Shown one piece after another: positions 27,161-44,381 of a stretch of 64,000 nt of DNA. The DNA is from Streptomyces umbrinus (GTDB taxonomy: Bacteria; Actinomycetota; Actinomycetes; Streptomycetales; Streptomycetaceae). Both the position numbers and the translations under genes were made by a program. A model generated the notes under the pieces. That model ran no database searches. It saw only the letters and a list, made by a program, of their open reading frames with translations, and was not told the DNA's origin. Location of the stretch: assembly GCF_030817415.1 (NCBI RefSeq), contig NZ_JAUSZI010000002.1, positions 558,001-622,000 on the forward strand, written 5' to 3'. Position 1 is the stretch's first letter; each line of letters begins with the position of its first letter.

Positions 27161-27162
27161 GG

Positions 27163-28170: not shown

Positions 28171-28234
28171 GGATGGGTCCTGTTCCCGGCGGGGGCGGGC
28201 GCGGTCTGTACCGTCCCGCCCCTGGCCGATGGTC

Positions 28235-29575
28235 CTACGGGATCTTGTAGCCGGCGTTGTCGGAGAAGTCCTGGTCGATGGCGCGGGCGGCCTTCTCCAG
28301 GGCGCTCTTCGGGTCGGCTCCGCCGTAGATCGAGTTGAGGGCCTCGCTGAACTTGGCGGTGATGGTGGGGTATCCGGCGGTCACCGGGCGGGTGACGGCG
28401 ACGCAGGACTTGGTGATGTCGCTGTCGCCGCAGGGCTTGGCGAGCTGGTCGGCGAAGAGCTGGAGCGGGCCGCCCTCCTTGTACAGGGGGCTCGCGGCGA
28501 GCGCGGTCTTCGTGGCGGGCGGGGCGCCGTTGGCCGTCGTCATCGCGGTGACGTTGGCGTCGTTGAGCAGGTAGTCCATGAAGGCACCGGCGGCCTTGGC
28601 GTTCTTGGTGTCGGCGCCGATGCCCCACGCCCAGGAGCCCTGGCCGGTCTTGGGACCGTTGCCGAAGTCGGGCAGCGGAAGGACGACGAGGTCGTCGCCG
28701 AGCGCCTTGCCGTAGGTGGGGTACATCCAGTGGCCGACCCAGCTCAGGGCAACGCGGTCCTTGGCGAAGGCGTTGCCGTCGGTGTTGGGGTCGACGTACG
28801 TCTTCCAGGACTGGACGGTCTTCAGCGCCGAGACGACGGCCGGCGTGTCGAGGGCGCCTTCCGCCTTGTCGCCCTTGATCAGCGAACCGCCGGCCGACCA
28901 GACGACGGGGGCGAAGCCGTAGGTCCCCCACTCGGTGGCCAGGCCGTTGCCCTCTTGGATGTCGAGGGTCTTGCCGTCGGAGTCCTTGGCCTTCAACGCC
29001 TTGAGCGCGGCGGTGAACTGCTCGGCCGTCCAGTCGTCGGACAGGCTGGTCGGGTACTTCACGCCGGCCGCGTCCAGCAGCTTCTTGTTGCCGTAGATCC
29101 CCAGGCCCGAGTCGTACATGCCCAGGCCGTAGTGCTTGCCGCCGATCGCTCCCTGGGACTTGCTCGCGTCGGTGGCGTTGGACATCGTCTTGGCGGAGAC
29201 GTAGTCGTCGACGGGGGCGAGCTTCTTGTTGTAGACGAAGTTCGCCATGGTCGGGCCGTCGAACTCCATCACGTCCGGCAGCTCGGAGGCGCTGGTGGCG
29301 GTGATGGTCTTGGTGTAGTCGTTGCCGGGTATCAGCTTCAGCTCGACCTTGATGTCGCTCTGCGAGGAGTTGAAGGACTTCACCGCGGCCTGCACGGCGG
29401 CGTCCTCGCTCTTCTGGCCCTGGTGGGCCCAGACGCTGATGGTGCCCTTGCCGCTGCCGGCGTCCGCCGAGGCGTCGGTGCCGCTGCCCCCGCCACAGGC
29501 GGCCAGTGCCACGAGAGGGAGCAGGGCCAGGCCCGTACAGGCCGTGCGGCGGTGCCTTCTGTTGGTCGAGCTCAT
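28235..29575 (-). CDS. Carbohydrate ABC substrate-binding lipoprotein (CUT1)
   Basis: A 446-residue extracellular solute-binding protein (family 1). The signal peptide ends in the lipobox LAAC with the cysteine at residue 27, followed by a Gly/Ser/Ala linker. The mature domain begins GTISVWAHQGQ and shows the usual lobe pattern. It is the first gene of the importer unit. The neighbouring GH32-like enzyme suggests that the ligand is a fructoside, sucrose-like sugar or related oligosaccharide; this is inference. Confidence 0.92.
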   Translation of the reverse strand: MSSTNRRHRRTACTGLALLPLVALAACGGGSGTDASADAGSGKGTISVWAHQGQKSEDAAVQAAVKSFNSSQSDIKVELKLIPGNDYTKTITATSASELPDVMEFDGPTMANFVYNKKLAPVDDYVSAKTMSNATDASKSQGAIGGKHYGLGMYDSGLGIYGNKKLLDAAGVKYPTSLSDDWTAEQFTAALKALKAKDSDGKTLDIQEGNGLATEWGTYGFAPVVWSAGGSLIKGDKAEGALDTPAVVSALKTVQSWKTYVDPNTDGNAFAKDRVALSWVGHWMYPTYGKALGDDLVVLPLPDFGNGPKTGQGSWAWGIGADTKNAKAAGAFMDYLLNDANVTAMTTANGAPPATKTALAASPLYKEGGPLQLFADQLAKPCGDSDITKSCVAVTRPVTAGYPTITAKFSEALNSIYGGADPKSALEKAARAIDQDFSDNAGYKIP

Positions 29576-29612
29576 GGTCTGTGCCTCCGTGCTGTGGCGT
29601 GGGTTCGAGGTG

Positions 29613-29626
29613 TGGGAGCGCTTCGA
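29613..29626 (-). promoter_or_regulatory. Candidate LacI-type operator before the binding-protein gene
   Basis: TGGGAGCGCTTCGA is a near-palindrome around AGCGCT, close to the common LacI-family consensus in actinomycetes. It lies 38 bases upstream of the SBP start and between it and the LacI gene stop. Confidence 0.45.
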
Positions 29627-29655
29627 GGCGTGGGGGGTGTGGGGCTCAGGGGGTG

Positions 29656-30675
29656 CTACTGAGGTCCGCGCGGACGGGGTGGGGCGGTGGTCTCGCGCAG
29701 GACCAGGCGGATGGGCATCTGGACATGACCGGGGTGTTCGGCACCGGGTTCGTCGAGCTGGCGCAGCAGCAGCCGGGCGGCCTCGGCGCCCTGGCCCGCG
29801 ACCGGCTGGGCGACCGTGGTCAGTCCGACCACGTCGGCGAGTTCGTGGTCGTCGAAGCCGACGACGGACACGTCGTCCGGGACCCTCAGCCGGTGGCGGC
29901 GCAGGGCCCGGAGCGCGCCCATCGCCATCTCGTCGGACTGCGCGAACACGGCGGTCGGCGGCCGGGAGGCGGCCAGCAACTCGGTCATCGCCCGCTCGCC
30001 GCCCTCGAGGGTGTAGTCGCCGTCCGCCTCCAGGGCCGGGTCGTGCTCGATCCCGGCCTCGGTCAGCACGTCGAGATAGCCCCGGCGGCGCTCGATGGGC
30101 GTGGTCCAGTGCAGCGGCCCGCTGGATCCGCTGATCGTGCCGATGCGGCGGTGGCCGAGGTTCACCAGATGCCGTACGGCGCTCTCCGCACCGGCCCGGT
30201 CGTCGATGCCGACCACGGTGAAGCCGGGCCGGGCGACGCCGACCGTGCTGGCCAGCGGCACTCCGAGGGAGCGCAGCGCCGCGGACTCCCCCTCGTCGGG
30301 GATGAGCAGCGACAGCACCGCGTCCACCCGCTTGCGGACCGGCAGCTTCGTGAAGAAGCGCTTGCGGGTCTCGGGTGTGCCCAGGTTGTACAACAGGACG
30401 TCGTACCCGGCGGCGCTGAACACCTGCTCCGCCGCGTCGAGCACGGTGCCGAAGAACCAGCGGCCCACGTACGGGACGACGACCCCGATGGTGAAGGTGC
30501 GGCCGCTGGCCAGGCTGGAGGCGGAGCGGGACGCGGTGTAGCCGAGCTGTGCGGCGACGGCCGCGATCCGGTCCCGCACCTCGTCGGAGACGCCCGCCCG
30601 GCCGCGCAGGGCGCGGGACACGGTGGACGCGGAGACGCCGGCGGCGCGGGCGACGTCGTTGATGCTGGCCGTCAC
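29656..30675 (-). CDS. LacI-family transcriptional regulator
   Basis: A 339-residue LacI/GalR regulator. HTH: INDVARAAGVSASTVSRAL (residues 5-23), then a sugar-binding core (FTIGVVVPYVGRWFF). It lies upstream of the CUT1 importer on the same strand and is divergent from the GH32-like gene, with an operator-like palindrome in between. It probably represses both units until the sugar appears. Confidence 0.92.
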   Translation of the reverse strand: MTASINDVARAAGVSASTVSRALRGRAGVSDEVRDRIAAVAAQLGYTASRSASSLASGRTFTIGVVVPYVGRWFFGTVLDAAEQVFSAAGYDVLLYNLGTPETRKRFFTKLPVRKRVDAVLSLLIPDEGESAALRSLGVPLASTVGVARPGFTVVGIDDRAGAESAVRHLVNLGHRRIGTISGSSGPLHWTTPIERRRGYLDVLTEAGIEHDPALEADGDYTLEGGERAMTELLAASRPPTAVFAQSDEMAMGALRALRRHRLRVPDDVSVVGFDDHELADVVGLTTVAQPVAGQGAEAARLLLRQLDEPGAEHPGHVQMPIRLVLRETTAPPRPRGPQ

Positions 30676-30750
30676 GGCTCAGTTCCTCCCGTTGATTTCA
30701 CGGCGGTGTGATCTGCGAGTGACGTGACCGTAAACCTGACCTCGCTGTTG

Positions 30751-30764
30751 CGCAAGCGTTTGCG
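30751..30764. promoter_or_regulatory. LacI-type operator between LacI and GH32-like genes
   Basis: CGCAAGCGTTTGCG has perfect CGCAA/TTGCG half-sites around GCGT. It sits in the 181-bp divergent promoter region and is a good candidate site for the adjacent LacI protein. Confidence 0.65.
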
Positions 30765-30856
30765 TTCAGATTTACTTGGGCCGATTCCCAAGAGATACCG
30801 CTTTGGTCAATGGTCAGCGCATGCGTTTGGGCGCTGTGAGCCGACAGGAACTGTGC

Positions 30857-32197
30857 ATGCGATACGCCCCGCCCGGCCTCTGCGTGAACGACTTCGCCCT
30901 GCTGCGCGACGAGGACGGCACGTACACGGTGCTGCACCTGCAGGGGCCCTGGACAGCGGAGTTCGACCACCTGCGGATGGAGACCTCCTACGGCCGGGCG
31001 ACCTCCGCCGACCTGGTCCGCTGGCAGCCCCAGGGCACCGCCTTCGGCAACGGGCTGCCCGGCCGATTCGACCAGCAGGCCGTGTGGACCATGCACCCGT
31101 TCCGGCACGGCAGCGGGATGGCCATGTTCTACACGGGGGTGAGCGGGCTGACGGCGGACGGCTGGCCGCTGCAGTCCGTCGGCCTCGCGTACTCCGACCG
31201 CACCGACGGCACGGGCTGGCGGCGCCACGGCACCGGTCCGGTCGTCGAGGCGGACCCGCGCTGGTACCGCACCGGTGAACGCATGGGCTGGCGCGACCCG
31301 TTCGTCGTACGCGACGACGAGGGCGAGGGCTGGGTGATGGCCGTCTGCGCGAGCGACGCCTCGCTGCCGGTGGAGGTCAGCGGCTGCGTGGCGCTGGCCA
31401 CGTCGAGCGACCTGGAGCACTGGACGGTCCACCCGCCGCTCGTCTCACCCGGGGACGTCGACGAGTTGGAGTGCCCGGTCCTGGAACGCCTCGACGACGG
31501 CAGCTGGCTGTTGCTCGGCTCCATCGGCGCCACCCGCGGCTTCGAGGCGTGGACCGCCCCCCGCCTGCGCGGCCCCTGGACCCGCCGCGGCCCCCTCGGC
31601 CCGACCGGCTCGTACGCCCCCCGTGTCGTCGGCGCGCCCGACGGTTCCCGGGTCGTCGTGCACACCACGCCCCGTCAGGTGGGCCTCACCGACACCGGGG
31701 AGCGCTGCCGCGGCATGCTGGCCCAGCCCAAGTCCCTTGTCGTACGGGAGGATTCGGCGCCCCGCCTGGAATGGTGGACCGGCCTGAACGCCTGGCTCGG
31801 CGAGGAGACCGACCGGCCCGCCCTCCACGCGGTCGGTGACATCGGCATCACCGGGCCCGTCGAGATCACCCTCCGCACCGACACCCCGGACGACGACCGC
31901 CCCGCCCTCTCCGTCGGCTGCGACGGCAAGAACCTCTGGGTCACCGGCCCCGGCGGCATCCGCCTCGGCGAGACCGTCCTGACCGAACCGGCCGCCACTC
32001 TCCGCATTCTCACCATCGGCGAATACGTCGAGGTGTACGCCGACAACGTCTTCGCCCTCACGGCCCTGTGCTACTCCGGGCACTCCACCCCGTGGACAGC
32101 CGTGACCGAAGGACACAGCCGTACGATCCCCATACGCCCGATCCGCCTGCCCGACCCCCACCGCGACGACGCCTCGGCCATCTGGCCCGGCCCTTGA
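30857..32197 (+). CDS. GH32-like beta-fructosidase family protein
   Basis: A 446-residue cytoplasmic glycoside hydrolase of the five-bladed GH32/GH43-type propeller superfamily. I chose ATG 30857, which follows AGGAA at 6 bases; earlier ATGs at 30776 and 30821 lack such support. Three acidic positions match the GH32 triad: Asp12 in CVNDFALL (the usual WMNDPNG motif is strongly altered), Asp147 in WRDPFV, and Glu205 in ELECPVL. A C-terminal beta-sandwich follows (about residues 320-440). There is no signal peptide, so it would act on an imported sugar. It is divergent from LacI and the importer genes. Sucrose/levan oligosaccharide hydrolysis is likely, but the altered first motif leaves room for another fructoside. 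Confidence 0.82.
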   Translation: MRYAPPGLCVNDFALLRDEDGTYTVLHLQGPWTAEFDHLRMETSYGRATSADLVRWQPQGTAFGNGLPGRFDQQAVWTMHPFRHGSGMAMFYTGVSGLTADGWPLQSVGLAYSDRTDGTGWRRHGTGPVVEADPRWYRTGERMGWRDPFVVRDDEGEGWVMAVCASDASLPVEVSGCVALATSSDLEHWTVHPPLVSPGDVDELECPVLERLDDGSWLLLGSIGATRGFEAWTAPRLRGPWTRRGPLGPTGSYAPRVVGAPDGSRVVVHTTPRQVGLTDTGERCRGMLAQPKSLVVREDSAPRLEWWTGLNAWLGEETDRPALHAVGDIGITGPVEITLRTDTPDDDRPALSVGCDGKNLWVTGPGGIRLGETVLTEPAATLRILTIGEYVEVYADNVFALTALCYSGHSTPWTAVTEGHSRTIPIRPIRLPDPHRDDASAIWPGP

Positions 32198-32230: not shown

Positions 32231-33295
32231 TCACTCGGTGGCGGCCCGAGCGCGTGCGGCCTCTCGGACCGCGGCCACGTTCTTCTTGCCCTTCCGCGAG
32301 CCGTTCAGCTTGGCCCTGATGTGCTCTCGGACGGTGACCGGTTCGTAGGCGAGACCGTGGTCCGCGTCGAGTAGGGCGGGCAGCGTCTCGATGACCGCGT
32401 CCGGGTTCCCGTCGTGGAAGAAGGCGGCCGAGCGGCGCCGCAGGATCGTCCCGTCGACGACGGGGGGCTTGACGCGGTGCAGCGTCGACATCCACCGGTC
32501 GTTGGTCAGGAGGGCCGTGAGATCGCCGAGGTTGACGAGCAGCGCGCCGTCCGCGGGCGTCACGTCGTGCCAGGTGCCGTGGCGGTCGAGCACCTGGAGC
32601 CCGGGGACCTGGTCGGCCCACAGCACGGTGACGATCCCGTAGTCGGTGTGTTCGCCCATACCCATCAGCTCGCCGTCCAGGTCCACGGTGCCTTCGGGCA
32701 GGGCGTAGTTGTTCATGCGGAGCACGTCGATGGAGTGTCCGGTGAGTGCCTCGAAGAAGTCCGGTGCCAGACCGAGGGCGTCCGCGAAGATCCGCGTCAG
32801 CGTGCGTGCCACCCGCGAGGCGTGACCGAAGTAGGCCTCCACCCGCGGCGTGAAGGCCTCGGTGTCCGGCCACACGTTGATCCCGAAGTCGTCCTCGGAA
32901 AGGCCGAGTTCGGGCGGGAAGGAACGCGCCTCGACACCGACGTTGAAGGCCTCGAAGAAATCGTTCATCCGCGAGGCCGACTCAAGTCCCAGGCTCAGGC
33001 TCAGCGACTCGCTCTTCGGCGGGCTGTAACCGCGGTTGGCGCCGTCGACGCGGTACGCCTTCTTCGCCTCCAGCGGCAGCGCGAAGAACGCGTCCATGGC
33101 CCCCTTCAGACCGTCGAACGCCGGCTGCGGAATGCCGTGCCCGAGGATCTGGATGAACCCCACCTCAGCACACGCGGCGTCGATCAGCCGTGCCACATGC
33201 CCCCGCTCCTCGTCCGTACCGTCTCCGACGTAGGGGGAGATGTCGACGGCCGGCACGGTGAACATGGGCGTGGAGGTGGCAATGTGAGACTTCAC
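32231..33295 (-). CDS. Isopenicillin-N-synthase-like 2-oxoglutarate/Fe(II)-type oxygenase
   Basis: A 354-residue oxygenase of the IPNS/plant-2OGD type. GTG 33295 follows GGAAGG; the frame is open further upstream without support. The N-terminal domain has VPAVDISPY and GFIQILGHGIP. The iron ligands are the H and D of EHTDYG and the H of STLHRVKPP, with the 2-oxoglutarate-type RxS in RRRSAAFF. It would hydroxylate or oxidatively cleave a small molecule. It is the last gene of a nine-gene minus-strand operon for uptake and breakdown of an unknown, probably glycosidic, compound, after a 140-bp gap. Confidence 0.88.
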   Translation of the reverse strand: MKSHIATSTPMFTVPAVDISPYVGDGTDEERGHVARLIDAACAEVGFIQILGHGIPQPAFDGLKGAMDAFFALPLEAKKAYRVDGANRGYSPPKSESLSLSLGLESASRMNDFFEAFNVGVEARSFPPELGLSEDDFGINVWPDTEAFTPRVEAYFGHASRVARTLTRIFADALGLAPDFFEALTGHSIDVLRMNNYALPEGTVDLDGELMGMGEHTDYGIVTVLWADQVPGLQVLDRHGTWHDVTPADGALLVNLGDLTALLTNDRWMSTLHRVKPPVVDGTILRRRSAAFFHDGNPDAVIETLPALLDADHGLAYEPVTVREHIRAKLNGSRKGKKNVAAVREAARARAATE

Positions 33296-33435
33296 TGTCG
33301 TGCGTCCTTCCAGACTGTGATCATTTGGCGAAGGGCCGCCGACCGGCCCGTGTTCCCTGCCCAGTTTCGGGCGGAGCAGGTCGCGCGGCATCCGCTTCCT
33401 CCGGGAGCCACCGCTCAGAGCGACGGCCAACCGGC

Positions 33436-34380
33436 TCAGGAGAGAAGCCCGGCGTCTGCCCGTATCCCCTTCACCACGGCCGTCCCTGTCCGAAGCGCGG
33501 CGACGGGATCAGCGGCCTCGTCCAGCTCGATGAGCACGATGTCGGCGCCGGGAGTCATTGACATCGCGGCGGCCCATCCTCTCCAGTCCACGATGCCCGT
33601 ACCCAGTTCGGTCATGTAGGGCTGCTGTTGGGCGAAGACCGTTTCGTCGATGGTGAGTTCGATGTCGATCGGCTTGACCGCGTCCTTCCAGTGCGCCAGT
33701 GCGATGCGTTGGGAGTGGCGACGCGCGACGGCGACGGGGTCGCCTCCCCCGAGTGCGATGTGGCAGGAGTCGGGACACAGCCACACGTAGCGTGGATCGG
33801 TCAGAGCCATGAACAGGTCGATGTCCCTCTCGTACCAGAGGGTGCTGTTGGACTCGGTGTGGAAGGCGAGCTTCACACCGTGCTGTGCGACGGCCTCACC
33901 GACGATGTGGGCGATGTCTGCCATCCGGGTCATGTACGCGGCGTCGACGAAGAAGGGCGGGCGCGTCCCCGACGTCGCACGCATGGGCAGCCCGGCGACG
34001 AGAAGTCCGGCGCCCACGTCGGCGAGGAAGGCCGCGCGTCGCTCGGCGTCGGCGACTATCGCGGGCAGGCTGTCGCTGTCCCGCCAGTCGGGGCATTCGC
34101 TCTCGGCGATGAAGGCGCTCACGACGGACAGGCCGCGGGCCTGCAACTCATGGCGGAACGACGGCGCGTCGCCGAACGCGCGCAGGACCGAGTCGATGTC
34201 GCCCGGCGCGAAGGTCAGCTCGATGCCGGTGACACCCGCCTCGGCCAACGCGTCCATCGTCCGGTCCCAGAAGCGCCCGGGGTTCTTGACGGCCCAGTCG
34301 CGAAAGGCGTCCGCGGATTCGAGGCCCCAGAAACCGGGGTGGTAGAAGGTCACGACGTCGGTGGCGAAGCGTGGTGCCAC
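33436..34380 (-). CDS. IolE-like sugar isomerase/epimerase or keto-glycoside lyase (TIM barrel)
   Basis: A 314-residue xylose-isomerase-like TIM barrel starting at GTG 34380. The pattern LALTDPRYVWLCPDSCHIALG matches inosose dehydratase/epimerase (IolE-type) proteins. Likely metal ligands are the E of FHTESN, the D of CPDSCH, a histidine in IALAHWKD, and the E of IVLIELDEA. Relatives act on keto sugars, including the 3-keto-C-glycoside cleaving enzymes (DgpB/CarC-type families). With a pyranose-oxidase-like enzyme in the same operon, processing of a keto-glycoside is the natural inference. It starts 28 bases after the deaminase gene. Confidence 0.85.
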   Translation of the reverse strand: MAPRFATDVVTFYHPGFWGLESADAFRDWAVKNPGRFWDRTMDALAEAGVTGIELTFAPGDIDSVLRAFGDAPSFRHELQARGLSVVSAFIAESECPDWRDSDSLPAIVADAERRAAFLADVGAGLLVAGLPMRATSGTRPPFFVDAAYMTRMADIAHIVGEAVAQHGVKLAFHTESNSTLWYERDIDLFMALTDPRYVWLCPDSCHIALGGGDPVAVARRHSQRIALAHWKDAVKPIDIELTIDETVFAQQQPYMTELGTGIVDWRGWAAAMSMTPGADIVLIELDEAADPVAALRTGTAVVKGIRADAGLLS

Positions 34381-34408
34381 GGGAGTCTCTCCATTCGGAT
34401 CGGCGGAA

Positions 34409-35017
34409 TCATTCGGCGCCTGCGCGCGCGTTGTAGACGACGATGCCGTCGGCGTCGACGGCCTCCCGGTAGCCGCGGAACACCGCGAGCGCCTCGTCCC
34501 GGAGCACGTCCCGCACGACCTCGATGCCGCGTGCCTGGAACTGCCCGGCCCAGTCCGCGCCGAGCGGGCCCTCGTCGAACGTGGTGATCTCCTCCAGTTC
34601 CGGGCCCTCGCCGGCGACCACGAGGCCGCGCACCCCGGACCACATCGCCGCGCCGTAGCACTGGATGCACGGACGCCAGTTCACCACCAGCTCGTGCGCC
34701 GGCATTCCGTCACCACCGAGATCCCAGCCGCCCGTCGTCGTCTGGGCCAGTCCGAGGGCGACGACCTCGGCGTGCGCGCTGGAGACACCGGAGGCGAGTA
34801 CGACGTTCACGCCGACCGAGACGATCCGGCCGGTGTCCCGCTCGGCGACGAGTGCCGCGAACGGACCGCCATTGCCCTCACGCCAGTTGCGGTCGGCCAG
34901 CCGGTGCACGAGGCGCATCCGGTCGTCACGGGCCGGAATGGCAGCGGGGACGGCGGCCAGTTCGTCGTCGATCCACGTCGGGAGCACCACCCGGTATTCC
35001 TTTGCGATGTCGATCAT
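34409..35017 (-). CDS. Cytidine-deaminase-fold (guanine/nucleoside deaminase-like) zinc enzyme
   Basis: A 202-residue protein of the CDA superfamily. ATG 35017 overlaps the stop of the GMC gene (ATGA). The zinc site is complete: His82 and the proton-shuttling Glu84 in SSAHAEVVAL, and Cys117 and Cys120 in RPCIQC. It is longer at the N-terminus than guanine deaminase or tRNA deaminase (about 150-160 residues). Such enzymes hydrolyse an exocyclic amine of a base or pteridine-like ring. Its place inside a glycoside operon suggests that the aglycone carries an amino group; the true substrate is unknown. Confidence 0.85.
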   Translation of the reverse strand: MIDIAKEYRVVLPTWIDDELAAVPAAIPARDDRMRLVHRLADRNWREGNGGPFAALVAERDTGRIVSVGVNVVLASGVSSAHAEVVALGLAQTTTGGWDLGGDGMPAHELVVNWRPCIQCYGAAMWSGVRGLVVAGEGPELEEITTFDEGPLGADWAGQFQARGIEVVRDVLRDEALAVFRGYREAVDADGIVVYNARAGAE

Positions 35018-36558
35018 GATCGGACCTCCTCTCGGTGCGTGGCGAGCGCGGCGGTCCGTACGGCGACGGCCCGGGCGGCCCGTACGGCCGTCACCGCGCC
35101 GGTCAGGGTGACGTTGGCGGCCATCGCGGTGGGGATCACGCCGTTGCCGGCGAGGTACAGGTTGTCGTAGCCCCACACCCGGCCGTCCGGGCCGCACACG
35201 CTGGTGCCGTCGTCGACCGGGCCGGAACGGACGGTGCCGGTCAGGTGCAACGACGAGCCGGGCGGGAGCAGCGCACGCTCCGTCGCGGGATCGAAGGGGC
35301 CGAATTCCTCGGCAATCGACTGGATTTCGTCAAGTGCCCGGCCGAGCAGCGCTCGGTCGGCGTCGGAGTAGCCGAACTCGACACCGATCCGGGGCATCCC
35401 CGCGAGGTCGGTCTCGGTCGGCGAGAACACCAGCCGGTTCTCGGGGCGCGACTCGACAGGCACGTACAGCGAGAGGCCCACGGAGTGGGCGAGGGGGCGG
35501 CCGTCCTCGTCCACGTACGTTCGGTTCATGATCTGGCCGTGGAACGGCTGCGCCGCTCCGTTCTGGGGCAGCCAGAGCGAATCGGTGCTGAACTCGCCGA
35601 CACGCGGCAGAGGCAGGTCGTCGAGATCGATGCCGAACCGGTCGGGGTCGAGCAGCACCCGGGCGGTGATGAACGCGTGCTCGTTGAGGTAGCGGCCCAG
35701 CGCCTCGGGCCGGATGCCCGAGGCGAACAGCAATTGCGGGGTGCGCAGCGCGTCGGCGCACACCACCACGGCATCCGCGAGGAGTTGCGACTCGCCGCCG
35801 TCGGCGATGCGACGCAGCCGGGCGCCGGCGACCCGGCCGTCCGAGACGATGAGAGCGGTCGCGAGGGTACCGGTCAGCAGGGTGAAGGCCGGGTCCTCGC
35901 CGGTCGCCATCGCGGGGAAGATCGTCCCCGGAGCCGTGCGCGGCATGGGGCCCGATGCCGGCGTGGTGACGGCCATGGGCATCGACTGCGGCCGCCGGTC
36001 GTCCGGTCCGATGCCGTCGAAGCGCCGACGCAGTACGTCGAGCACGATCCGGCCGACGTCGGTCGGACCGATCGCGGACGGGGTGACCGCGAGCAACCGG
36101 CGCGCGGTGTCCAGGTCCGTCGCCCAGCGGGCCGGGTCGCCGAAGTCGAACACCTCGTCCCCGGCGGGCCAGGGCGTCGCGGCGGTCCAGTGCACGCCCA
36201 TGCCGCCGGCGTTCCACGCGAGCGCTGTCGCGGGCATCGCCTCGGCGTCCTCGCCGAAGGCGAGCGCGTGGAACATGCCGGGTGTCAGATCGTCGAGGCT
36301 GCCCGCGGCATCGCGCACCACCTCGGCGCCGGTGTACATGCCTTGGATGCCGGTGCCGACCCGTTCGTTGTAGCGCGACCAGAGAGCCGGATCGTCGACG
36401 TCGTGCAGGTGCAGGCCGGGGACCTCGCCGATCGCGCTGCCACCCTCGACCATGGTGATGTCCAGCGCCGGATCGGTGTCGCGCAGCAGTCTGGCCACGA
36501 CTGATCCCATGATGCCGCTGCCCACGACGAGGACGTTGGTGCGAGTGGTGCCGGTCAA
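35014..36558 (-). CDS. GMC oxidoreductase, pyranose-oxidase/glycoside-oxidase-like
   Basis: A 514-residue FAD enzyme. The TTG at 36558 is preceded by AGGAG at 6 bases and begins just before the dinucleotide-binding motif VLVVGSGIMGS; no ATG fits. AGGMGVHWTAATP (His123) corresponds to the pyranose oxidase segment in which the histidine carries FAD covalently. The catalytic His-Asn pair of the GMC family is His438 (in SLHLTGTVRSG) and Asn482 (in AANVTLTG). Length is shorter than fungal pyranose oxidase (about 620) but near bacterial glycoside oxidases. It would oxidise a ring hydroxyl (C2 or C3) of a sugar or glycoside. It is coupled to the deaminase gene downstream. Confidence 0.85.
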   Translation of the reverse strand: MTGTTRTNVLVVGSGIMGSVVARLLRDTDPALDITMVEGGSAIGEVPGLHLHDVDDPALWSRYNERVGTGIQGMYTGAEVVRDAAGSLDDLTPGMFHALAFGEDAEAMPATALAWNAGGMGVHWTAATPWPAGDEVFDFGDPARWATDLDTARRLLAVTPSAIGPTDVGRIVLDVLRRRFDGIGPDDRRPQSMPMAVTTPASGPMPRTAPGTIFPAMATGEDPAFTLLTGTLATALIVSDGRVAGARLRRIADGGESQLLADAVVVCADALRTPQLLFASGIRPEALGRYLNEHAFITARVLLDPDRFGIDLDDLPLPRVGEFSTDSLWLPQNGAAQPFHGQIMNRTYVDEDGRPLAHSVGLSLYVPVESRPENRLVFSPTETDLAGMPRIGVEFGYSDADRALLGRALDEIQSIAEEFGPFDPATERALLPPGSSLHLTGTVRSGPVDDGTSVCGPDGRVWGYDNLYLAGNGVIPTAMAANVTLTGAVTAVRAARAVAVRTAALATHREEVRS

Positions 36559-36634
36559 AGGGGGACTCCTGTCCTGTACTGCTGCCTGGTACTGACGTCT
36601 GCCACGCTGTCCTGCTTCTGCTGGTGGTGAGCGT

Positions 36635-37774
36635 TCACGCGCTCGGGGCGAGCGGGCCGAACAGCTGCGTGTCCATCGAATCGAGTGCCAGCTTGACGGC
36701 GCCGATGAGGTCGGCGTCGCGCCCCAGACACGTGGCACGCAGCTCGACCGCGGGGGTGCGGGCGTCGTGCATCGCCTTGCGCACGCGGGGCAGCAGCACA
36801 TCGGCCGCGTCCTCCAGACCGCCGCCGAGCACGATGAGCGACGGCGCGACCGTCCACGACAGGGTCGTGAGGATCGACGCGATGTTCTCCACGAATTCGT
36901 CCACCTCGGCGAGCGCTGTCGCATCACCGGCACGAGCCGCGTCGAAGCGGTCGAGCGCAACCCTGCGTCGATCCGGTTCCGGGGAGGTGAGCCCTGCCAC
37001 CGGGCGGTTCTCCACCGAGCCGGTCGGCATCGACGCCGCTTCGACGATCTCGCCCGCGGCACCGTCGAGCCCCCTGTGCACGGCACCTCGGATGAGGATG
37101 CCCAGGCCGGTCCGGTTCCCGAGTATCGCCCATACGACGTTGTCGTGATCGTCGGCCACGCCCCGCCAACGCTCCGCGAGGGCACCGAGGTTGGTGTCGT
37201 TGTCAGCGAACCAGGGCATCGGGACCCGCCGCGCGAGTTCCTCGGGGAGGTTCACGCCTTCCCAGCGCGTCGTGTGCACCAGGCGTCGTACGACCCCGTC
37301 GTCGTCGATCGCGCCACCGCTCGCGACAGCACCGGCCCGAAGACGGTTCGCCGACCCGCCCGCGTCGTCGAACGCCTCCAGCACCAGTGCCGCCGCGTCG
37401 TCGAGCGTGGACTGCGGATCCTGGTAGGCGCGCAGCGGCCGATGCGCCCGGCCGACGACACGGCCGCGTACGTCGGCGACGACCGCGGACGCGTCCAGGG
37501 TGGTGATGCGCACGGCCGCCAGCAGCGCGTGTTCGGCCCGCAGTTCGTACCGGCGGGCCGGGCGCCCGGCACAGCCGCTGGTCGGCACGCGGTCCAGTTC
37601 GGTCACCCAGCCCGCCTCGACGAGCGAGTCCAGGACGACCTCGATGGTGCGGCGGGAGAGGCCGACCTGCTCGGCGAGCTCGGTCAGCGTGATCGGCCCG
37701 GCCGACACCGCCAGTGCGCGCAGGATGACCGAGGTGTTGATGCGTCGGACGGCGCTCTGGTTCATTCCGGACAT
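36635..37774 (-). CDS. ROK-family transcriptional regulator
   Basis: A 379-residue regulator with an N-terminal winged HTH (about residues 15-65, LTELAEQVGLSRRTIEVVL) and a ROK domain with ILGNRTGLGILIRGAVHRGL and GAAGEIVE. Start ATG 37774 overlaps the esterase stop (TGATG). It lacks the kinase-type CxCGxxGC zinc motif, as expected for a NagC/XylR-like repressor rather than a sugar kinase. It probably senses the operon's sugar and controls the promoter upstream of 42302. Confidence 0.88.
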   Translation of the reverse strand: MSGMNQSAVRRINTSVILRALAVSAGPITLTELAEQVGLSRRTIEVVLDSLVEAGWVTELDRVPTSGCAGRPARRYELRAEHALLAAVRITTLDASAVVADVRGRVVGRAHRPLRAYQDPQSTLDDAAALVLEAFDDAGGSANRLRAGAVASGGAIDDDGVVRRLVHTTRWEGVNLPEELARRVPMPWFADNDTNLGALAERWRGVADDHDNVVWAILGNRTGLGILIRGAVHRGLDGAAGEIVEAASMPTGSVENRPVAGLTSPEPDRRRVALDRFDAARAGDATALAEVDEFVENIASILTTLSWTVAPSLIVLGGGLEDAADVLLPRVRKAMHDARTPAVELRATCLGRDADLIGAVKLALDSMDTQLFGPLAPSA

Positions 37775-39201
37775 CAGCACGCCTCCGCCACCCCGGACAC
37801 CGCCGGTACCACCGGATCGAACAAGCCCGTGGTGTCGGCGGTGAGCGCCGCGCCGGGACGGCCGTATTCGCGAGCCGCGTCGCCGAGTGTCCCGGTCGCC
37901 CTGGCCCAGGCCGGCTCCTGGCCACGTACGAACCTGACCAGATCGGTGTGGGTCAGTGCGGCCAGCTCCCCTGGCGGGTTCGGCCCGAGCGCTTCACCGA
38001 CTCCGGGTGCGTCGAGCACGTCGAAGAAGAACGGGATGTCGATGCAGTGCGTGGCGCCGCCGAGCACCGGGGAGGGCCATTCGAAGGAGTACAGCCAGGT
38101 GCCGGCGGCGGCGTCGCGGCGGGAGGCCGCGACCCGCGGGCAGGCGGCGCGGAAGAGGGTGTCCGTCACCCGGGTGCCTGCCTCGCGGGTGCCTGCCGTG
38201 CGGATGGTGGCGTCGCCGTCGAATTCGTCGCCCGTGGCGCCGAGCAGCAGCGGTACGGCGTGCCCGTGCCGGGTGAGTCCGTCGGCGATGGGCGCAGGCA
38301 GAATGTCGTCGCCGACGAACAGGCCGAGCGCGGGCAGGTCGTCGCCCTGTTCGTCCCGCAGGTCGATGACGCAGCGCTGGATGTGCTCCACGGCGCGGCC
38401 GGCGAATCCGGCTCGCGTCGGCGGCACACCGAGCCGGTGCGCGAGCCGTCCGAGGAAGTCGCGTGCCGCGTCCCCGTCTGCCGCGAAGGTGCCACCGGAC
38501 AGGCTGGCCGCACGGTGGAAACGGCCGCTGCCCGCGGGCGACGAGAGCAGCGCTAGGACCGCCGCACCCCCGGCCGACTGACCGGCGACGGTGACCCGGT
38601 CCGGATCGCCGCCGAAAGCGGCGATGTTGTCCTGCACCCAGTCGAGCGCGAGCAGCAGGTCGCGCATCCCGAGGTTCGCTGGAACGCCGTCCAGTACGGC
38701 GAATCCGTCGACGCCCAGCCGGTAGCCGACGGTGACGCAGACGACCCCGTCGCGGGCGAAGGCACGGCCGTCGTACCACGGACTGGCCGGGCTCCCCGCC
38801 AGGAAGGCGCCGCCGTGGATCCACACCAGAACCGGGAAGGGCTCGCGGTCGTCGTCGGCGTCAGGCGCGACGATCCCTAGGTTCAGCACGTCGTCGCCCG
38901 GCACCGACGGCTCCGGCACTGTGGTCGTGGCGAACAGCGGCACGCGCTGCGCGGTGGCACCGTGCCGGGACGCGTCGAACGGCTCCGTGAACCGGCCGCG
39001 GCGGGCCGGCGCTGCGAACCGCCGTGCACCGGTGGGAGCTTCGGCGTACGGAATACCGAGGAAGCGCCGAACCGAGCCGGTGCGACGGCCGATGATCGTG
39101 CCCGCCGGCGCGCGGACGGTGACGGTCTCCCGGACTTCGGCCGGGCGGATCCTCATCTCGTTTCGCTCGCCGCGCGCGTCGAACGAGTCCATGGGGGTCA
39201 C
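37774..39201 (-). CDS. Type-B carboxylesterase
   Basis: A 475-residue carboxylesterase/lipase. The GTG at 39201 overlaps the permease stop (GTGA). Family features: oxyanion hole VWIHGGAF, nucleophile elbow TVAGQSAGGAAV, acid region ATGDEFDGD, and the histidine in GGATHCIDIPFFF. No signal peptide, so it works in the cytoplasm on an imported ester. Within this operon it may remove an acyl group from a glycoside before oxidation. Confidence 0.9.
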   Translation of the reverse strand: MTPMDSFDARGERNEMRIRPAEVRETVTVRAPAGTIIGRRTGSVRRFLGIPYAEAPTGARRFAAPARRGRFTEPFDASRHGATAQRVPLFATTTVPEPSVPGDDVLNLGIVAPDADDDREPFPVLVWIHGGAFLAGSPASPWYDGRAFARDGVVCVTVGYRLGVDGFAVLDGVPANLGMRDLLLALDWVQDNIAAFGGDPDRVTVAGQSAGGAAVLALLSSPAGSGRFHRAASLSGGTFAADGDAARDFLGRLAHRLGVPPTRAGFAGRAVEHIQRCVIDLRDEQGDDLPALGLFVGDDILPAPIADGLTRHGHAVPLLLGATGDEFDGDATIRTAGTREAGTRVTDTLFRAACPRVAASRRDAAAGTWLYSFEWPSPVLGGATHCIDIPFFFDVLDAPGVGEALGPNPPGELAALTHTDLVRFVRGQEPAWARATGTLGDAAREYGRPGAALTADTTGLFDPVVPAVSGVAEAC

Positions 39202-40079
39202 CGCATTCCCGTTCCGGCGACGCCCTGCACGAAGTAGCGCTGCAGGAACAGGAAGAGCACCAGCACCGGCAGCATCACGACGATCGCCCCGGCGAGCAGC
39301 AGACCGTAGTCGGTGACGTGCGCCGCGGCCTGGCTGGTGGCGGCCAGGCCCACCGGCAGTGTGTAACTGGACATGCTCTGGGCGACGATGAGCGGCCAGA
39401 GGAAGTTGTTCCACGAACTGAGGAACGACATGATCGTGATCGTGGCGACAGCGGGTCCGGCCAGCGGGAGGAAGATCCCGAAGAAGATCCGGAACTCCCC
39501 TGCGCCGTCGATCCGGGCCGCTTCGAGCAGTTCGTCTGGGATCGACATCGCGTACTGCCGCATGATGAAGACCGACAACGGCAGCGCCACGCTCGGCAGC
39601 GCGACACCGGTGAGGGTGTCCGCCAGGCCCAGGTCGACCGTGATCACGAACTGCGTGACGAACACCGAGGTGAGCGGCATCATCATCGCGCCCATCACCG
39701 CGGCGAACGCGATCCGCCTGCCGGCGAAGTCGAGCTTGGCGAGTGCGTAGCCGGCGGCCGACGCCGCCACGATGTTGCCGACCACCACCATGACCGCGAC
39801 CACGACGCTGTTGACCAGGAACCGGCCGAAGCCCTGTGTGGTGAACAGCCGCTCGAAGTTGTCGAAGGTGAGGTGCTGAGGGACCCAGGCACCGGGGTCG
39901 GAGCGGATCTCGTCGAGACTGCGCAACGAGCCGCTGATCACCCAGACGAACGGAAGCATCGTGAGCAGCGCGCACAGCACGAGCGCGCCGTACAGCAGGG
40001 GCCGGGAGACGGACCGGCGGCGCACCGCGATCCGGTCGGTGGTCATGTCGGCGTTCTCCAACGCGGCGAGGGCGGTCAT
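39198..40079 (-). CDS. Carbohydrate ABC permease, MalG-like (CUT1)
   Basis: A 293-residue permease with six membrane helices. ATG 40079 overlaps the stop of the MalF-like gene (an internal ATG lies at 40046). The EAA loop is LEAARIDGAGEFRIFFGIFL and the C-terminus LQRYFVQGVAGTGMR is typical. Second membrane subunit of the importer that opens the nine-gene operon; its ATPase is presumably the shared MsiK. Confidence 0.92.
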   Translation of the reverse strand: MTALAALENADMTTDRIAVRRRSVSRPLLYGALVLCALLTMLPFVWVISGSLRSLDEIRSDPGAWVPQHLTFDNFERLFTTQGFGRFLVNSVVVAVMVVVGNIVAASAAGYALAKLDFAGRRIAFAAVMGAMMMPLTSVFVTQFVITVDLGLADTLTGVALPSVALPLSVFIMRQYAMSIPDELLEAARIDGAGEFRIFFGIFLPLAGPAVATITIMSFLSSWNNFLWPLIVAQSMSSYTLPVGLAATSQAAAHVTDYGLLLAGAIVVMLPVLVLFLFLQRYFVQGVAGTGMR

Positions 40080-40996
40080 GTGCGGGGCCTCAGCAGCCGG
40101 AACTGGACGACGCTCACCAGCATCACGAGCACGAGCGTCACGAAGGACGCCGCCGAGGACATCCCGAACTCGCCGGCCCCGAACTGGTGGTAGGTGTACA
40201 GCGCCACCGATTCGGTGGAGCCCAGCGGGCCGCCGTTGGTGAGCAGGTACGGCTCGTCGAACATCTGGAGGTAGAAGACGGTCAGCAGCACCGACACCAT
40301 GAGGGTGGTGGGCCGCAGCAGCGGCAGGGTGATGTGCCTCAACTGCCGCCATCGGCCGGCCCCGTCGAGGGAGGCGGCCTCGTACACGTTCTGCGGAATC
40401 GCCTGCAGGCCGGCGAGGAACAGCACCATCGCGATGCCGAAGTTCCGCCAGACGCCGAGCAGGATGACCACGGGCATGGTCAGGTTCGGGTCGTCCAGCC
40501 AGTTCGGCCCCGCGAAGCCGACAGCACCGAGCGTTTTGTTGACGGTGCCGCCCGCGTTGAAGGCGTACTGCCAGATCAGGGCGACCGCTACGACGTTCGT
40601 GACAACCGGGGCGAAGAAGACCGTGCGGAACGCGCCGCGCAGCCGGCGGATGCCGGAGTTCAGCGCGAGAGCCAGCGCGAGCCCGATCCCCATCGTCAGT
40701 GGCACGCCGACGGCCACGAAGACCGCGGTGTTGAGGATGTCCCGCAGGAAGATCTGGTCCTGGAACAGTCGGAGATAGTTGTCCAGTCCCGTGAAGTCCA
40801 CCGCGAACGGATGACGCAGATCCGCGCCCCGCAGGTCGGTGAGGCTGAACCCGAGCGCGGCGACGGTGGGAATCGCCGTGTAGACCAGGAACACGACGGT
40901 GAACGGCGCCAGGAACAGCCAACCCACAGCCGTTCGACGGGCGCCCCGAGGACGACGCGTTCTGCGAGGCACCTTCTGGAGGACGGTGACGGTCAT
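40076..40996 (-). CDS. Carbohydrate ABC permease, MalF-like (CUT1)
   Basis: A 306-residue permease. A basic N-terminus precedes six helices; the EAA loop is YEAASLDGAGRWRQLRHITL. It starts 7 bases after the binding-protein gene and overlaps the next permease gene by 4 bases, so these subunits are tightly co-translated. Confidence 0.92.
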   Translation of the reverse strand: MTVTVLQKVPRRTRRPRGARRTAVGWLFLAPFTVVFLVYTAIPTVAALGFSLTDLRGADLRHPFAVDFTGLDNYLRLFQDQIFLRDILNTAVFVAVGVPLTMGIGLALALALNSGIRRLRGAFRTVFFAPVVTNVVAVALIWQYAFNAGGTVNKTLGAVGFAGPNWLDDPNLTMPVVILLGVWRNFGIAMVLFLAGLQAIPQNVYEAASLDGAGRWRQLRHITLPLLRPTTLMVSVLLTVFYLQMFDEPYLLTNGGPLGSTESVALYTYHQFGAGEFGMSSAASFVTLVLVMLVSVVQFRLLRPRT

Positions 40997-41003
40997 CCGC
41001 GGA

Positions 41004-42302
41004 TCACTCCGTGCCCGTGCCGAGGCTCTCGGCGTACGTCTGGAGGTTCGCGGCGGCCTTCGCGGCGGTCTCCTCGCCCTTGGCCACCGCTTCCATCTCC
41101 TTGCCCAGCCGGGTCGCGACCTGCGGCCAGGTACTGACCTGCGGGAACGCCCTGGTGTTCTTCAGCTGCGTCAAGAAGGCGTCCAGCAGCGGCTGGCCCG
41201 CGATGGCGGAGTCCTTCCAGGCGGAGACGACCGCAGGCAGCGAGCTGTACGCCTTGTACTGCGACACCTGCGTGCTCGGGCTCGATATGTACCGGATGAG
41301 CTTCCACGACGCGTCCGCGTTGTCGGTGTCGGCAAGCACCCCCCAACTGCCGCCCGCGGAGAAGGAGACGCTGCCCGACGTCCCCGCCGGCAGCGGCGCC
41401 GTGGCTACGTGGGACGCCGTCCAGCCGTCCTTCTTCGCGGCGGCGTCGAGCTGGCCGATGACCCATGGGCCAGTGATCATCGTGGCCGTCTTGCCGGACA
41501 CGAAGTACGGCTGCGAGTCGAGGAACCCGGGCCCGGCGGTGTCAGCGGTCCCCGAGGTGTAGAACGACGCGTTGTACGTGATCGCGTCGACCATCGCCGG
41601 AGTGTCGAGCGTCCACTCCCCGCCCGAGGACAGCAGCGAACGGCCCGCCTGCCAGGCGTACATCGCGGCGTCCTGGCCGTTGAAGATGTCCCAGCCGATG
41701 TCGGCCCCGAGGCCGTGCGCGGCTCCGGCGCTCTGAAGCGCCTTGAAGAACGGCACCATCTCGTCCCATGTCTTCGGCGCCTCGACGCCCGCCTTCTTGG
41801 CCAGGTCGGAGCGGTAGACGAGCGCGTAGGTGTACGCGTACCAGGGCACCGTGTAGGCGACGTCCTTGACCACACCGGCATCCCACAGGCTCCTGAAGAA
41901 GCTGTCCGGGTCGACGAGCCCGTCCGGAACGGGCCGGAGTATCGACGGATCCAGGAACTGCGCCTGCGACTCGGGAAAGAACTGGGCGACATCGGGCCCC
42001 TTGCCCGCCGCGATCGCCGACTGGAGTTTGGTGTAGTAGTCGGCGTTCGGGATCAGCGTGAACTTCACGTCGAGGTCAGGGTTCGCCGCCTTGAAGGGCT
42101 TGATGACCTTGTCGAGCACGTCCGCATCGCCCTGGGCGGCCCAGACACTGACGGTGCCTGTGGCCGGGGAGCTGGCGATGGGCTCCGCGCCGGCTTTCGC
42201 GGTGGTGTCGTCACTGCGGCCACAGCCCGTCAGGGCGAAGCTGCCGAGGAGAGCGATGCCGCCGGTCAGCCGTAGGGCATCGCGTCTGGAGAGGTTGGAC
42301 AC
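41004..42302 (-). CDS. Carbohydrate ABC substrate-binding lipoprotein
   Basis: A 432-residue family-1 solute-binding protein. Its N-terminus MSNLSRRDALRLTGGIALLG carries twin arginines and ends in the lipobox LTGC (Cys27), so export may be through Tat or Sec before lipidation. The mature domain begins GTVSVWAAQGDADV. It is the first gene of the nine-gene operon and defines which glycoside enters. Confidence 0.92.
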   Translation of the reverse strand: MSNLSRRDALRLTGGIALLGSFALTGCGRSDDTTAKAGAEPIASSPATGTVSVWAAQGDADVLDKVIKPFKAANPDLDVKFTLIPNADYYTKLQSAIAAGKGPDVAQFFPESQAQFLDPSILRPVPDGLVDPDSFFRSLWDAGVVKDVAYTVPWYAYTYALVYRSDLAKKAGVEAPKTWDEMVPFFKALQSAGAAHGLGADIGWDIFNGQDAAMYAWQAGRSLLSSGGEWTLDTPAMVDAITYNASFYTSGTADTAGPGFLDSQPYFVSGKTATMITGPWVIGQLDAAAKKDGWTASHVATAPLPAGTSGSVSFSAGGSWGVLADTDNADASWKLIRYISSPSTQVSQYKAYSSLPAVVSAWKDSAIAGQPLLDAFLTQLKNTRAFPQVSTWPQVATRLGKEMEAVAKGEETAAKAAANLQTYAESLGTGTE

Positions 42303-42409: not shown

Positions 42410-42771
42410 GATAATGAGTGACCGTATGAATGGTGTGTTTCGACGGCATGCCGGAGGCCGCCCCGAATAATTTCGGAACTTGTAGCGAAATCGATTTGTC
42501 ACGCTCTGTCGCAACCGCCGTCCACTCGCCCGACCGACTTCGGCGGGCTCAGGCTGCGGCATGACGGCACGGACGCTTCGCTGACGGCACCTCGGTGTTC
42601 AATCCACCAGGGAGCATCCGAGCGGACCTCACTGGGAAGAGAGAGCAGCGTTCTCCGGAGAGGCGTATGCGGCAACTGCGGCACACGAACAGGTCCATGC
42701 CTGCCCGCCCGTCCATCGCAGAACGCGCCGCTGTCGGGCGCGTCGGGCCCCAAGTGCAGCGACCGAGTGCG

Positions 42772-43035
42772 TCAGCGGGAGGTGAGCGGGGTTTCCGACT
42801 CGACGCGGGTGAGCTTTTCAGGGTTGCGGACGTAGTAAAGGGCGGTGACGCGGGCGTTCTCCACCGTGAAGGCCAGTACGCCGTCGATCACTCCGCCCAG
42901 TCGCAGGATGAGGCCGGGGTTGCCGTTGACCGTCGTGGGCTCCCTGCTGAAGGTGCCGCCTGCCTTGTCGATGCTGCCGGCCATGTAGCGGAGCACCTTG
43001 TCGGCGCCGACGACCGGCAGAACATCCCCGTTCAT
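42772..43035 (-). pseudogene. C-terminal remnant of an ECF41/SigJ-type sigma factor
   Basis: An 87-residue frame matching only the SnoaL-like C-terminal domain of ECF41-type sigma factors: VGADKVLRYMAGSI, IDGVLAFTVENARVTALYYV and the typical end RNPEKL. The sigma-2 and sigma-4 regions are absent. The remnant begins 19 bases from the left end of the TnpB element, and no sigma sequence is found beyond the element, so the rest was lost by deletion. Confidence 0.75.
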
Positions 43036-43181: not shown

Positions 43182-44381
43182 GTGAGAGTGACCGTGAACC
43201 ACGTGAAGCGGGCGTTCAAGTACCGCTTCTGTCCGAGTGATGCGCAGGCGGCTGAGCTGTCGCGCACCTTCGGATGCGTGCGCAAGGTCTACAACCTGGC
43301 GCTCGCCGCCCGTACAGAGGCGTGGACGCGTCAGGAACGGGTCAACTACAACGCCACTTCCGCGATGCTGACGGCATGGAAGAAGACCGAAGAACTGGCC
43401 TACCTCAACGAGGTCTCCTCGGTTCCCCTCCAGCAGACGCTGCGGCACTTGCAGACGGCGTTCACCAACTTCTTCGGCAAGCGGGCCAGGTACCCGCACT
43501 TCAAGTCCAGGCGGAAGTCGAGGAAGTCGGCGGAGTACACCACGTCCGGTTTCCGGTTCCGTGACGGGAAGCTGACACTGGCGAAGATGCCTGAACCGCT
43601 GGACATCGTGTGGTCCCGTCCCCTCCCCGAGGGAGCGAAGCCCTCGACGGTGACGGTGTCGCAGGACGCTGCGGGCCGCTGGTTCGTCTCGCTGCTGTGT
43701 GACGACCCGTCCGTCACGCCGCTGCGGGCCAACGACAACGCGGTCGGTATCGATGTGGGCCTGGACCACCTGCTGACCCTGTCCACCGGGGAGAAGGTCA
43801 CCAACCCGCGCCACGAGCGCAAGGACCGCGTTCGCCTGGCGAAGGCTCAGCGGAACCTCGCGAAGAAGACCAGGGGTTCGGCGAACCGGAACAAGGCCCG
43901 ACACAAGGTCGCCAGGATCCATGCCCGGATCGCCGACCGCAGACGGGACGGCCTGCACAAACTGACCACCCGGCTCGTGCGCGAAAACCAAACGCTCGTG
44001 ATCGAGGACCTGACCGTGCGCACCATGGTCAAAAACCGGACCCTGGCCCGTGCGATCAGCGATGCCGCCTGGTCGCAGTTCCGGAGGATGCTGGAGTACA
44101 AAGCCGCCTGGTACGGGCGCGAGGTGATCGCCGTGGACCGGTGGTTCCCCTCGTCCAGGCTGTGCTCCGCCTGCGGCACCGTGCAGGACAAGATGCCGCT
44201 GAACGTCCGCACCTGGACGTGCGACCGCGGCACGACCCACGACCGGGACGTGAACGCAGCGAAGAACCTTCTGGCCGCCGGACGGGCGGTTGCAGCCTGC
44301 GGAGCTGGCGTGAGACCCCAACGGAGTACTCCGGGCGGGCAGTCGGCGATGAAACAGGAAGTCTCACGGCGCGAGCCGTAA
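43182..44381 (+). CDS. tnpB: TnpB RNA-guided nuclease of the IS605 type, zinc motif altered
   Basis: About 399 residues; start GTG 43182 or 43188. It has the N-terminal RNA-binding helical region and the split RuvC nuclease: Asp191 in GIDVGLDHLL, Glu275 in VIEDLTV and Asp356 in HDRDVNAAKN, all present. The C-terminal zinc ribbon normally has two CxxC pairs. The first is intact (Cys328, Cys331), but the second reads Cys347-Asp-Arg-Gly, so one cysteine is missing, perhaps by loss of one codon. TnpB proteins cut DNA guided by an RNA made from the element's right end. Whether this copy is active is uncertain. Confidence 0.88.
   Translation: MRVTVNHVKRAFKYRFCPSDAQAAELSRTFGCVRKVYNLALAARTEAWTRQERVNYNATSAMLTAWKKTEELAYLNEVSSVPLQQTLRHLQTAFTNFFGKRARYPHFKSRRKSRKSAEYTTSGFRFRDGKLTLAKMPEPLDIVWSRPLPEGAKPSTVTVSQDAAGRWFVSLLCDDPSVTPLRANDNAVGIDVGLDHLLTLSTGEKVTNPRHERKDRVRLAKAQRNLAKKTRGSANRNKARHKVARIHARIADRRRDGLHKLTTRLVRENQTLVIEDLTVRTMVKNRTLARAISDAAWSQFRRMLEYKAAWYGREVIAVDRWFPSSRLCSACGTVQDKMPLNVRTWTCDRGTTHDRDVNAAKNLLAAGRAVAACGAGVRPQRSTPGGQSAMKQEVSRREP

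Follow-up and report, generated by a model that had tools for sequence, protein, structure and literature searches.

To begin with, the DNA analysed was a stretch of 64,000 nt (hereafter, the window) of the 12.4-Mb genome of Streptomyces umbrinus (NZ_JAUSZI010000002.1, positions 558,001-622,000 of the forward strand), in which a run of nine open reading frames (ORFs), all on the minus strand (32231-42302), is taken with high confidence to be one glycoside-catabolic operon. These encode a binding lipoprotein (SBP), two permeases (P1 and P2), a carboxylesterase (EST), a ROK-family regulator (ROK), a GMC oxidase (GMC), a deaminase (DEAM), a TIM barrel (TIM) and an oxygenase (OXY). An earlier reading made from the sequence alone (the sequence-only reading) had described these genes, all of which were found at the same coordinates, and the families that it had named for the nine proteins agreed with Pfam and NCBIfam. 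The nine ORFs were also recovered by a codon-usage gene caller, a support that is non-independent, since the caller was trained on the same genes; later starts were placed for P1 (40927) and OXY (33265), and a TTG start was picked for GMC, for which starts further upstream are possible. The intergenic gaps were +7 nt (SBP-P1), -4 (P1-P2), -4 (P2-EST), -7 (EST-ROK), +76 (ROK-GMC), -4 (GMC-DEAM), +28 (DEAM-TIM) and +140 (TIM-OXY). None of the nine genes encodes an ATPase for the ABC importer.

To compare neighbourhoods, the best 80 of 98 confirmed loci from a search for deaminase homologues were taken. A total of 51 of them had SBP, P1, P2, ROK, GMC and DEAM on one strand and in a fixed order, an arrangement far beyond chance, and a TIM barrel followed DEAM in all 51 (46 with TIM and five with a divergent barrel, c19). 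The hosts were Streptomyces, Nonomuraea, Promicromonosporaceae and Microbacterium; locus L010 was counted among the 51, even though its frames for SBP and GMC are broken or incomplete. In the Microbacterium locus (L062), five genes were 52-75% identical to those of the window, and ROK 42%. Furthermore, 18 of 199 Streptomyces genomes had a GMC match at E≤1e-60, and the series ROK-GMC-DEAM-TIM was present in all 14 genomes (own included) in which the identity was at least 80%. The homologues therefore cluster clearly in other genomes, and the importer-linked glycoside-oxidation operon of the sequence-only reading is supported. For the four remoter Streptomyces GMCs (37-52% identity), no deaminase was found within 1.5-kb flanks, one of them (L123) having a weak TIM-type match (26%). 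TIM was scarce outside the operon, with matches at E≤1e-25 in 4 of 394 genomes of the class, three of which (own included) had GMC-DEAM-TIM and the fourth a partial match. In a sample of the phylum, deaminase matches at E≤1e-30 appeared in 21 of 296 genomes, all except the own one at 42-50% identity.

All nine genes together are not a fixed conserved unit, as EST and OXY are accessory. EST was present in 28 of the 51 operon loci, and OXY was present in only six, at the 3′ end in five and divergently upstream of SBP in one (Antribacter, L054); the single nine-gene pathway proposed earlier was thus rejected. The 3′ end could not be judged in two of the 51 loci, where the sequence ends right behind TIM, and in five other loci (L005:11541-12314, L006, L022, L035 and L042) this slot held a second, hydroxypyruvate-isomerase-like TIM barrel (c21).

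Table 1. Features of the operon in window coordinates; fractions are operon loci in which the gene was found.
Feature	Position	Strand	Evidence and remarks
Inverted repeat ATTTCG-N10-CGAAAT, putative ROK operator	42470..42491	-	168-189 bases upstream of first gene
SBP, CUT1 solute-binding lipoprotein	41004..42302	-	PF01547/PF13416; twin-arginine-type signal and LTGC lipobox read by eye; 51/51
P1, ABC permease 1	40076..40996	-	PF00528; 51/51
P2, ABC permease 2	39198..40079	-	PF00528; 51/51; 4-nt overlap with P1
EST, carboxylesterase, accessory	37774..39201	-	PF00135 (2.4e-68); GQSAGG at residue 207; 28/51
ROK-family regulator	36635..37780	-	PF00480 and N-terminal helix-turn-helix; 51/51
GMC flavo-oxidase, clade III pyranose/C-glycoside oxidase, likely ScPOx orthologue	35014..36558	-	8qve (2.5e-79), 7dve, 7qf8
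DEAM, CDA-fold, guanine-deaminase type	34409..35017	-	2g84 (1.6e-40); HAE, PCxxC, FDEGP, C-terminal VYNAR; 51/51
TIM, IolE-like barrel, putative 3-keto-glycoside lyase or 2-hydroxy-3-keto-glycal hydratase	33436..34380	-	
OXY, Fe(II)/2-oxoglutarate oxygenase (DIOX_N type), accessory	32231..33295	-	PF14226/PF03171; 6/51

The solved structures closest to GMC were 8qve, 7dve (MtCarA) and 7qf8 (PsPOx/PsG3Ox). Clade III of the pyranose oxidases/C-glycoside oxidases (POx/CGOx) has been defined by the motifs GVHW and R(P/T)(F/Y)VDEDG(E/R) (Kostelac et al., PMC10807413, available text). The GVHW flavinylation motif was found at residue 121 of the window GMC and in 49 of the 51 operon GMCs, the remaining two being GAHW in L062 and a partial call in L010. 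The substrate loop of the window GMC (RTYVDEDGR) fits the second motif, which few other operon GMCs fit fully, most of them varying at at least one position, and the catalytic His-Asn pair (H438 and N482) shows no variation across the aligned operon GMCs. In ScPOx of S. canus, H438, N482 and the loop M344-P355 have been reported (PMC9659204, available text), and the window GMC is identical to it at both residues and at the loop bounds, sharing also GVHW and a His at the position of PsPOx K55. In S. canus DSM 40017 (L034), the GMC of the operon had the same residues and bounds, though with RTYVDGTGR as its loop sequence; in L050 the GMC is offset by one residue, and in L033 the loop has A355 as its last residue. 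Moreover, three S. canus genomes had the operon gene as their only GMC match at E≤1e-20, and the computed mass of the L034 protein was 53.15 kDa, compared with 52 kDa stated for ScPOx (PMC9659204, available text). Judged by its motifs, the operon GMC is a clade III actinobacterial pyranose/C-glycoside oxidase, and ScPOx is very probably its orthologue, going by the published positions. This characterised enzyme had been absent from the sequence-only reading.

According to the available text of PMC9659204, ScPOx is weak on free sugars (0.045 U/mg on glucose at 200 mM), its best substrate among those tested is puerarin (7.35 U/mg at 0.2 mM), and molar Km values led the authors to infer that sugars are not its natural substrates. 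Neither a gene neighbourhood nor a deaminase is reported in the available texts of PMC9659204 and PMC10807413, where the words deaminase, operon and gene cluster are absent; the word nucleoside is also absent from that of PMC10807413.

Regarding DEAM, the best solved relative was 2g84 (E 1.6e-40 over residues 23-201), followed by 1tiy and 1wkq, both named guanine deaminase, near 1e-7. The 2g84 entry, which is titled simply ‘cytidine and deoxycytidylate deaminase zinc-binding region’, is presumably NE0047, the guanine deaminase of Nitrosomonas europaea. Both proteins share the zinc motifs (HAE at 82 and PCIQC at 116 in DEAM), FDEGP (at 147) and the C-terminal YNAR loop (VYNAR at 194), and we take the last two to bind guanine. 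In contrast, the second zinc motif reads NWRPCxQC in DEAM and AEPCVMC in 2g84, and DEAM is encoded in a glycoside operon. NWRPCxQC, FDEGP and VYNAR are common to the operon deaminases and their nearest non-operon relatives, and these features point to an enzyme that probably acts on a guanine-like ring. A deaminase tree was built with 52 sequences (17 of 50 usable operon copies, 27 non-operon and 8 of 21 distant ones), in which all operon deaminases except that of L062 grouped in a single supported lineage (18 rows, 100/98) together with the non-operon L029 and L053, while L062 branched in the unresolved backbone.

Among the 29 non-operon deaminase loci, seven had purine or ureide genes nearby. 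DEAM lay directly behind xanthine-dehydrogenase-type genes in L077, L078, L081 and L082 (domains checked in L077 and L082), an adenosine deaminase was found directly upstream of it in L055 and two genes downstream in L082, a purine/cytosine permease lay directly downstream in L058, and L029 had it in a ureide-type cluster (allantoin-type permease, racemase, formamidase and amidase). In L053, DEAM followed a urea importer without any purine gene, and in L067 the gene caller had missed the deaminase ORF. When the own genome was compared with TIGR02967 (guanine deaminase), 13 matches were obtained, none above the cut-off, and a MoCoBD_2 scan gave 10 matches, several of them partial, which cannot separate xanthine dehydrogenase from other molybdenum enzymes.

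The motifs of OXY are intact, with HTD at 216-218 and H273 as the iron triad and RRRS at 286 as the 2-oxoglutarate-binding RxS. Relatives at E≤1e-60 were found in 29 of 394 genomes of the class, and 20 neighbourhoods were fetched; outside the own genome 29 places were listed, of which these cover 21. Six of them (L178-L183) had purine genes beside the oxygenase, namely an adenosine deaminase and a purine/cytosine permease in L178, and an adenosine deaminase, an NMT1-type importer, a small CDA deaminase and a xanthine-dehydrogenase-type gene in L179-L183. These were checked by Pfam for adenosine deaminase in L178, L181 and L183, NMT1 in L179 and L181, CDA in L180 and L181, xanthine dehydrogenase in L181 and the permease in L178, the rest being assigned by clustering. 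In L191, read by cluster label, the oxygenase was beside NMT1-type importer clusters. Furthermore, a metagenomic protein 70% identical to OXY (P0212) has a C-terminal domain of OHCU decarboxylase, an enzyme of urate breakdown. Because of the purine neighbourhoods and this fusion, the OXY family would be at least partly purine-catabolic, and the relatives in L178-L183 suggest an uncharacterised family of Fe/2-oxoglutarate purine oxygenases. The amino-bearing, nucleoside-like aglycone proposed earlier thus gained support and was sharpened, given the likeness of DEAM to 2g84 and the purine genes accompanying part of the DEAM and OXY relatives. Two other roles were considered for OXY: it is unlikely to be a replacement uricase, as a uricase is present elsewhere in the same genome (C2:3037843-3038685), adjoining an 8-oxoguanine deaminase, and equally unlikely to be a plain substitute for xanthine dehydrogenase, as both occur in the same cluster in L179-L183.

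TIM is replaced by c19 in Promicromonospora, Antribacter and Microbacterium sp. B19 (five loci), with 24-26% identity over 118-146 residues. Both barrels keep H174, D204, H230 and E285, which we assume to be the IolE-type metal ligands. The c19 profile matched IolE (3cny, 2.4e-23) and a 2-hydroxy-3-keto-glucal hydratase (8ro4, 1.2e-6), and the TIM profile matched AL1 entries weakly (0.03-0.04). Fold neighbours of TIM at similar Z included IolE, 3-keto-glucoside lyases and many epimerases; as the fold alone does not decide between lyases and epimerases, TIM as a proven lyase was dropped. CarB and DgpB were not found among the sequence matches of TIM. In the fold comparison, DgpB-C (7drd) was at Foldseek rank 47 and CarB fell outside the matches listed, which is no evidence against kinship.

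The operon resembles the CarABC/DgpABC systems in that the sugar would be oxidised at C3 before a TIM barrel cleaves off the aglycone, CarA being in the same GMC family as the operon oxidase. However, those systems have a small eliminase subunit, none of which is encoded here, all nine proteins matching other Pfam families, so that the membership in the CarABC/DgpABC type suggested by the sequence-only reading was not supported; in addition, the operon has a guanine-type deaminase that they lack. The O-glycoside beta-eliminase operon of A. tumefaciens (AtOGE/AtHYD; PMC10628242, available text) and the 3-keto-glucoside 1,2-lyases AL1/BT1 likewise comprise TIM barrels annotated as sugar phosphate isomerases, acting on 3-keto-glycosides or 2-hydroxy-3-keto-glucal, and c19 is similar to AtHYD. 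The oxidise-eliminate-hydrate logic has been described for other glycosides (PMC10628242, available text), with a dehydrogenase (GlycDH) in place of the clade III GMC oxidase found here, plus a second oxidoreductase; the word deaminase is absent from that text. Literature searches, which left most subscription journals outside, found nothing pairing a pyranose or glycoside oxidase with a (guanine) deaminase, no 3-keto or beta-elimination route for nucleoside or purine glycosides, and no such operon in titles or the beginnings of abstracts. As far as these searches reach, the operon is an undescribed variant of the 3-keto deglycosylation operons, and what is new over the known oxidise-eliminate-hydrate systems is the invariant guanine-type deaminase.

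Taken together, the reading that we favour, with little better than even confidence, is a ROK-controlled scavenging pathway for a glycoside that carries, as its aglycone, guanine or a 2-amino-4-oxo-pyrimidine closely analogous to it, all enzymatic steps being inferred. The glycoside would be taken up by the CUT1 importer, its acyl groups would be removed by the optional esterase, and the sugar would be oxidised at position C3 (or C2) by the clade III GMC oxidase. Elimination of the aglycone from the 3-keto sugar, hydration of the resulting glycal or both would then fall to the IolE-like TIM barrel, which is probably metal-dependent, after which DEAM would turn the freed guanine-like base into its oxo form and ammonia, and in some strains the Fe/2-oxoglutarate oxygenase of the purine-linked family may oxidise the base further. 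Purine hexosides, pterin glucosides and vicine-type pyrimidine glucosides are candidate substrates. The last are a concrete candidate, since the 2-amino-4-oxo ring of vicine mimics guanine. An acylated vicine-type substrate would explain the optional esterase, and faba bean holds vicine forms with hydroxycinnamic and dicarboxylic acids (PMC10934171, available text).

Several observations weigh against this proposal. Enzymes of the POx family use pyranoses, and ordinary nucleosides are furanosides. No purine gene was recognised in 21 of the 29 non-operon deaminase loci, seven of which had sbcD/sbcC directly upstream of DEAM, and no purine enzyme was recognised in 14 of the 20 OXY neighbourhoods (nine read gene by gene and five by cluster label). 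Moreover, in the fold comparison TIM tied between an AL1 lyase (Z 23.2) and an L-ribulose 3-epimerase (Z 23.0), and in L029, a metagenome-assembled genome, DEAM and TIM adjoin without any GMC homologue in the assembly, so that TIM may not always need the oxidase.

Other explanations were weighed. The operon might scavenge C- or O-glycosyl flavonoids or other plain plant glycosides, DEAM being co-regulated for nitrogen salvage without any relation to the glycoside. This would agree with the GMC family being known for C-glycosides, with the oxidation of puerarin, mangiferin, homoorientin or related C-glycosides by ScPOx (as given in the available text on this enzyme) and with the urea importer beside the deaminase of L053. 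However, DEAM and GMC occur together in all 51 operon loci over four families and in 14 of 14 Streptomyces genomes, with a 4-nt overlap in the window, and a gene of side function would be expected to drop out more frequently, like EST and OXY; this explanation thus appears unlikely. It is more improbable still that the amino group attacked by DEAM belongs to the sugar or to a non-purine aromatic aglycone, with TIM as an epimerase or isomerase of the released sugar. CDA-fold enzymes are diverse and many ketose 3-epimerases are among the structural neighbours of TIM at nearly equal Z, but the similarity of DEAM to 2g84 is strong, with HAE, PCxxC, FDEGP and YNAR kept, and, by sequence, the solved proteins nearest to TIM (IolE) and c19 (IolE and AtHYD) are not epimerases. 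Finally, given the streptomycete hosts and the presence of an esterase, an oxidase and a deaminase together, the operon might be imagined to serve not nutrition but the detoxification or recycling of a nucleoside antibiotic of purine type, in free or glycosylated form; an importer and a sugar-type ROK regulator point to catabolism, and outside the operon the flanks have no gene common to all operon loci, which leaves this last explanation with a very low probability.

A wider proposal is one that we put forward only tentatively and consider rather doubtful: the operon would be the first known to break down nucleoside-like glycosides by an oxidative (3-keto) route, and purine or pyrimidine glycosides, not flavonoids, would be the natural substrates of clade III enzymes such as ScPOx. 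OXY would then belong to the uncharacterised Fe/2-oxoglutarate purine oxygenase family. The operon gives a testable natural role to the studied clade III enzymes, would connect 3-keto deglycosylation with purine-type nitrogen catabolism and points to a Fe/2-oxoglutarate oxygenase family with members in purine breakdown. Should the substrate be vicine-like, its enzymes might serve to rid faba bean of its favism agents.

With regard to regulation, the region upstream of SBP (GATTTCGCTACAAGTTCCGAAATT) holds the inverted repeat listed in Table 1. The 22-bp repeat was searched for, allowing ≤8 substitutions over its 22 bases, in 51 upstream regions, these being that of the window and those of 50 loci, with L010 omitted for its broken SBP frame. 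A total of 48 regions had it, 45 with at most one mismatch and three (Promicromonosporaceae) with six or seven, and it was not found within this limit upstream in L026, L051 and L062. The repeat has a single occurrence in the whole genome, where a reversed control pattern had none; this single site fits one dedicated regulator with one target, and the ROK protein likely binds it as its operator. A scan for consensus promoters and terminators gave nothing above chance.

Around the operon, a TnpB-family RNA-guided endonuclease gene lies just upstream (43188-44381, plus strand; NF040570, 378 bits against a cut-off of 100). Between both, an 87-aa ORF (42772-43035, minus strand) without any Pfam match is perhaps a gene remnant, and it seems to resemble the C-terminal end of an ECF sigma factor. 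In S. cavernae (L004:15263-17592), an amidase (PF01425) and a BPD_transp_2-type permease lie on the opposite strand behind the operon, perhaps as part of a nucleoside-type importer locus. On the other side of the window operon, a neighbouring sugar-uptake locus (26306-32197) comprises two permeases, a binding protein, a LacI regulator and a GH32-type glycosidase, and, judged by gene lengths, it also adjoins the operon in S. phaeochromogenes (L003).

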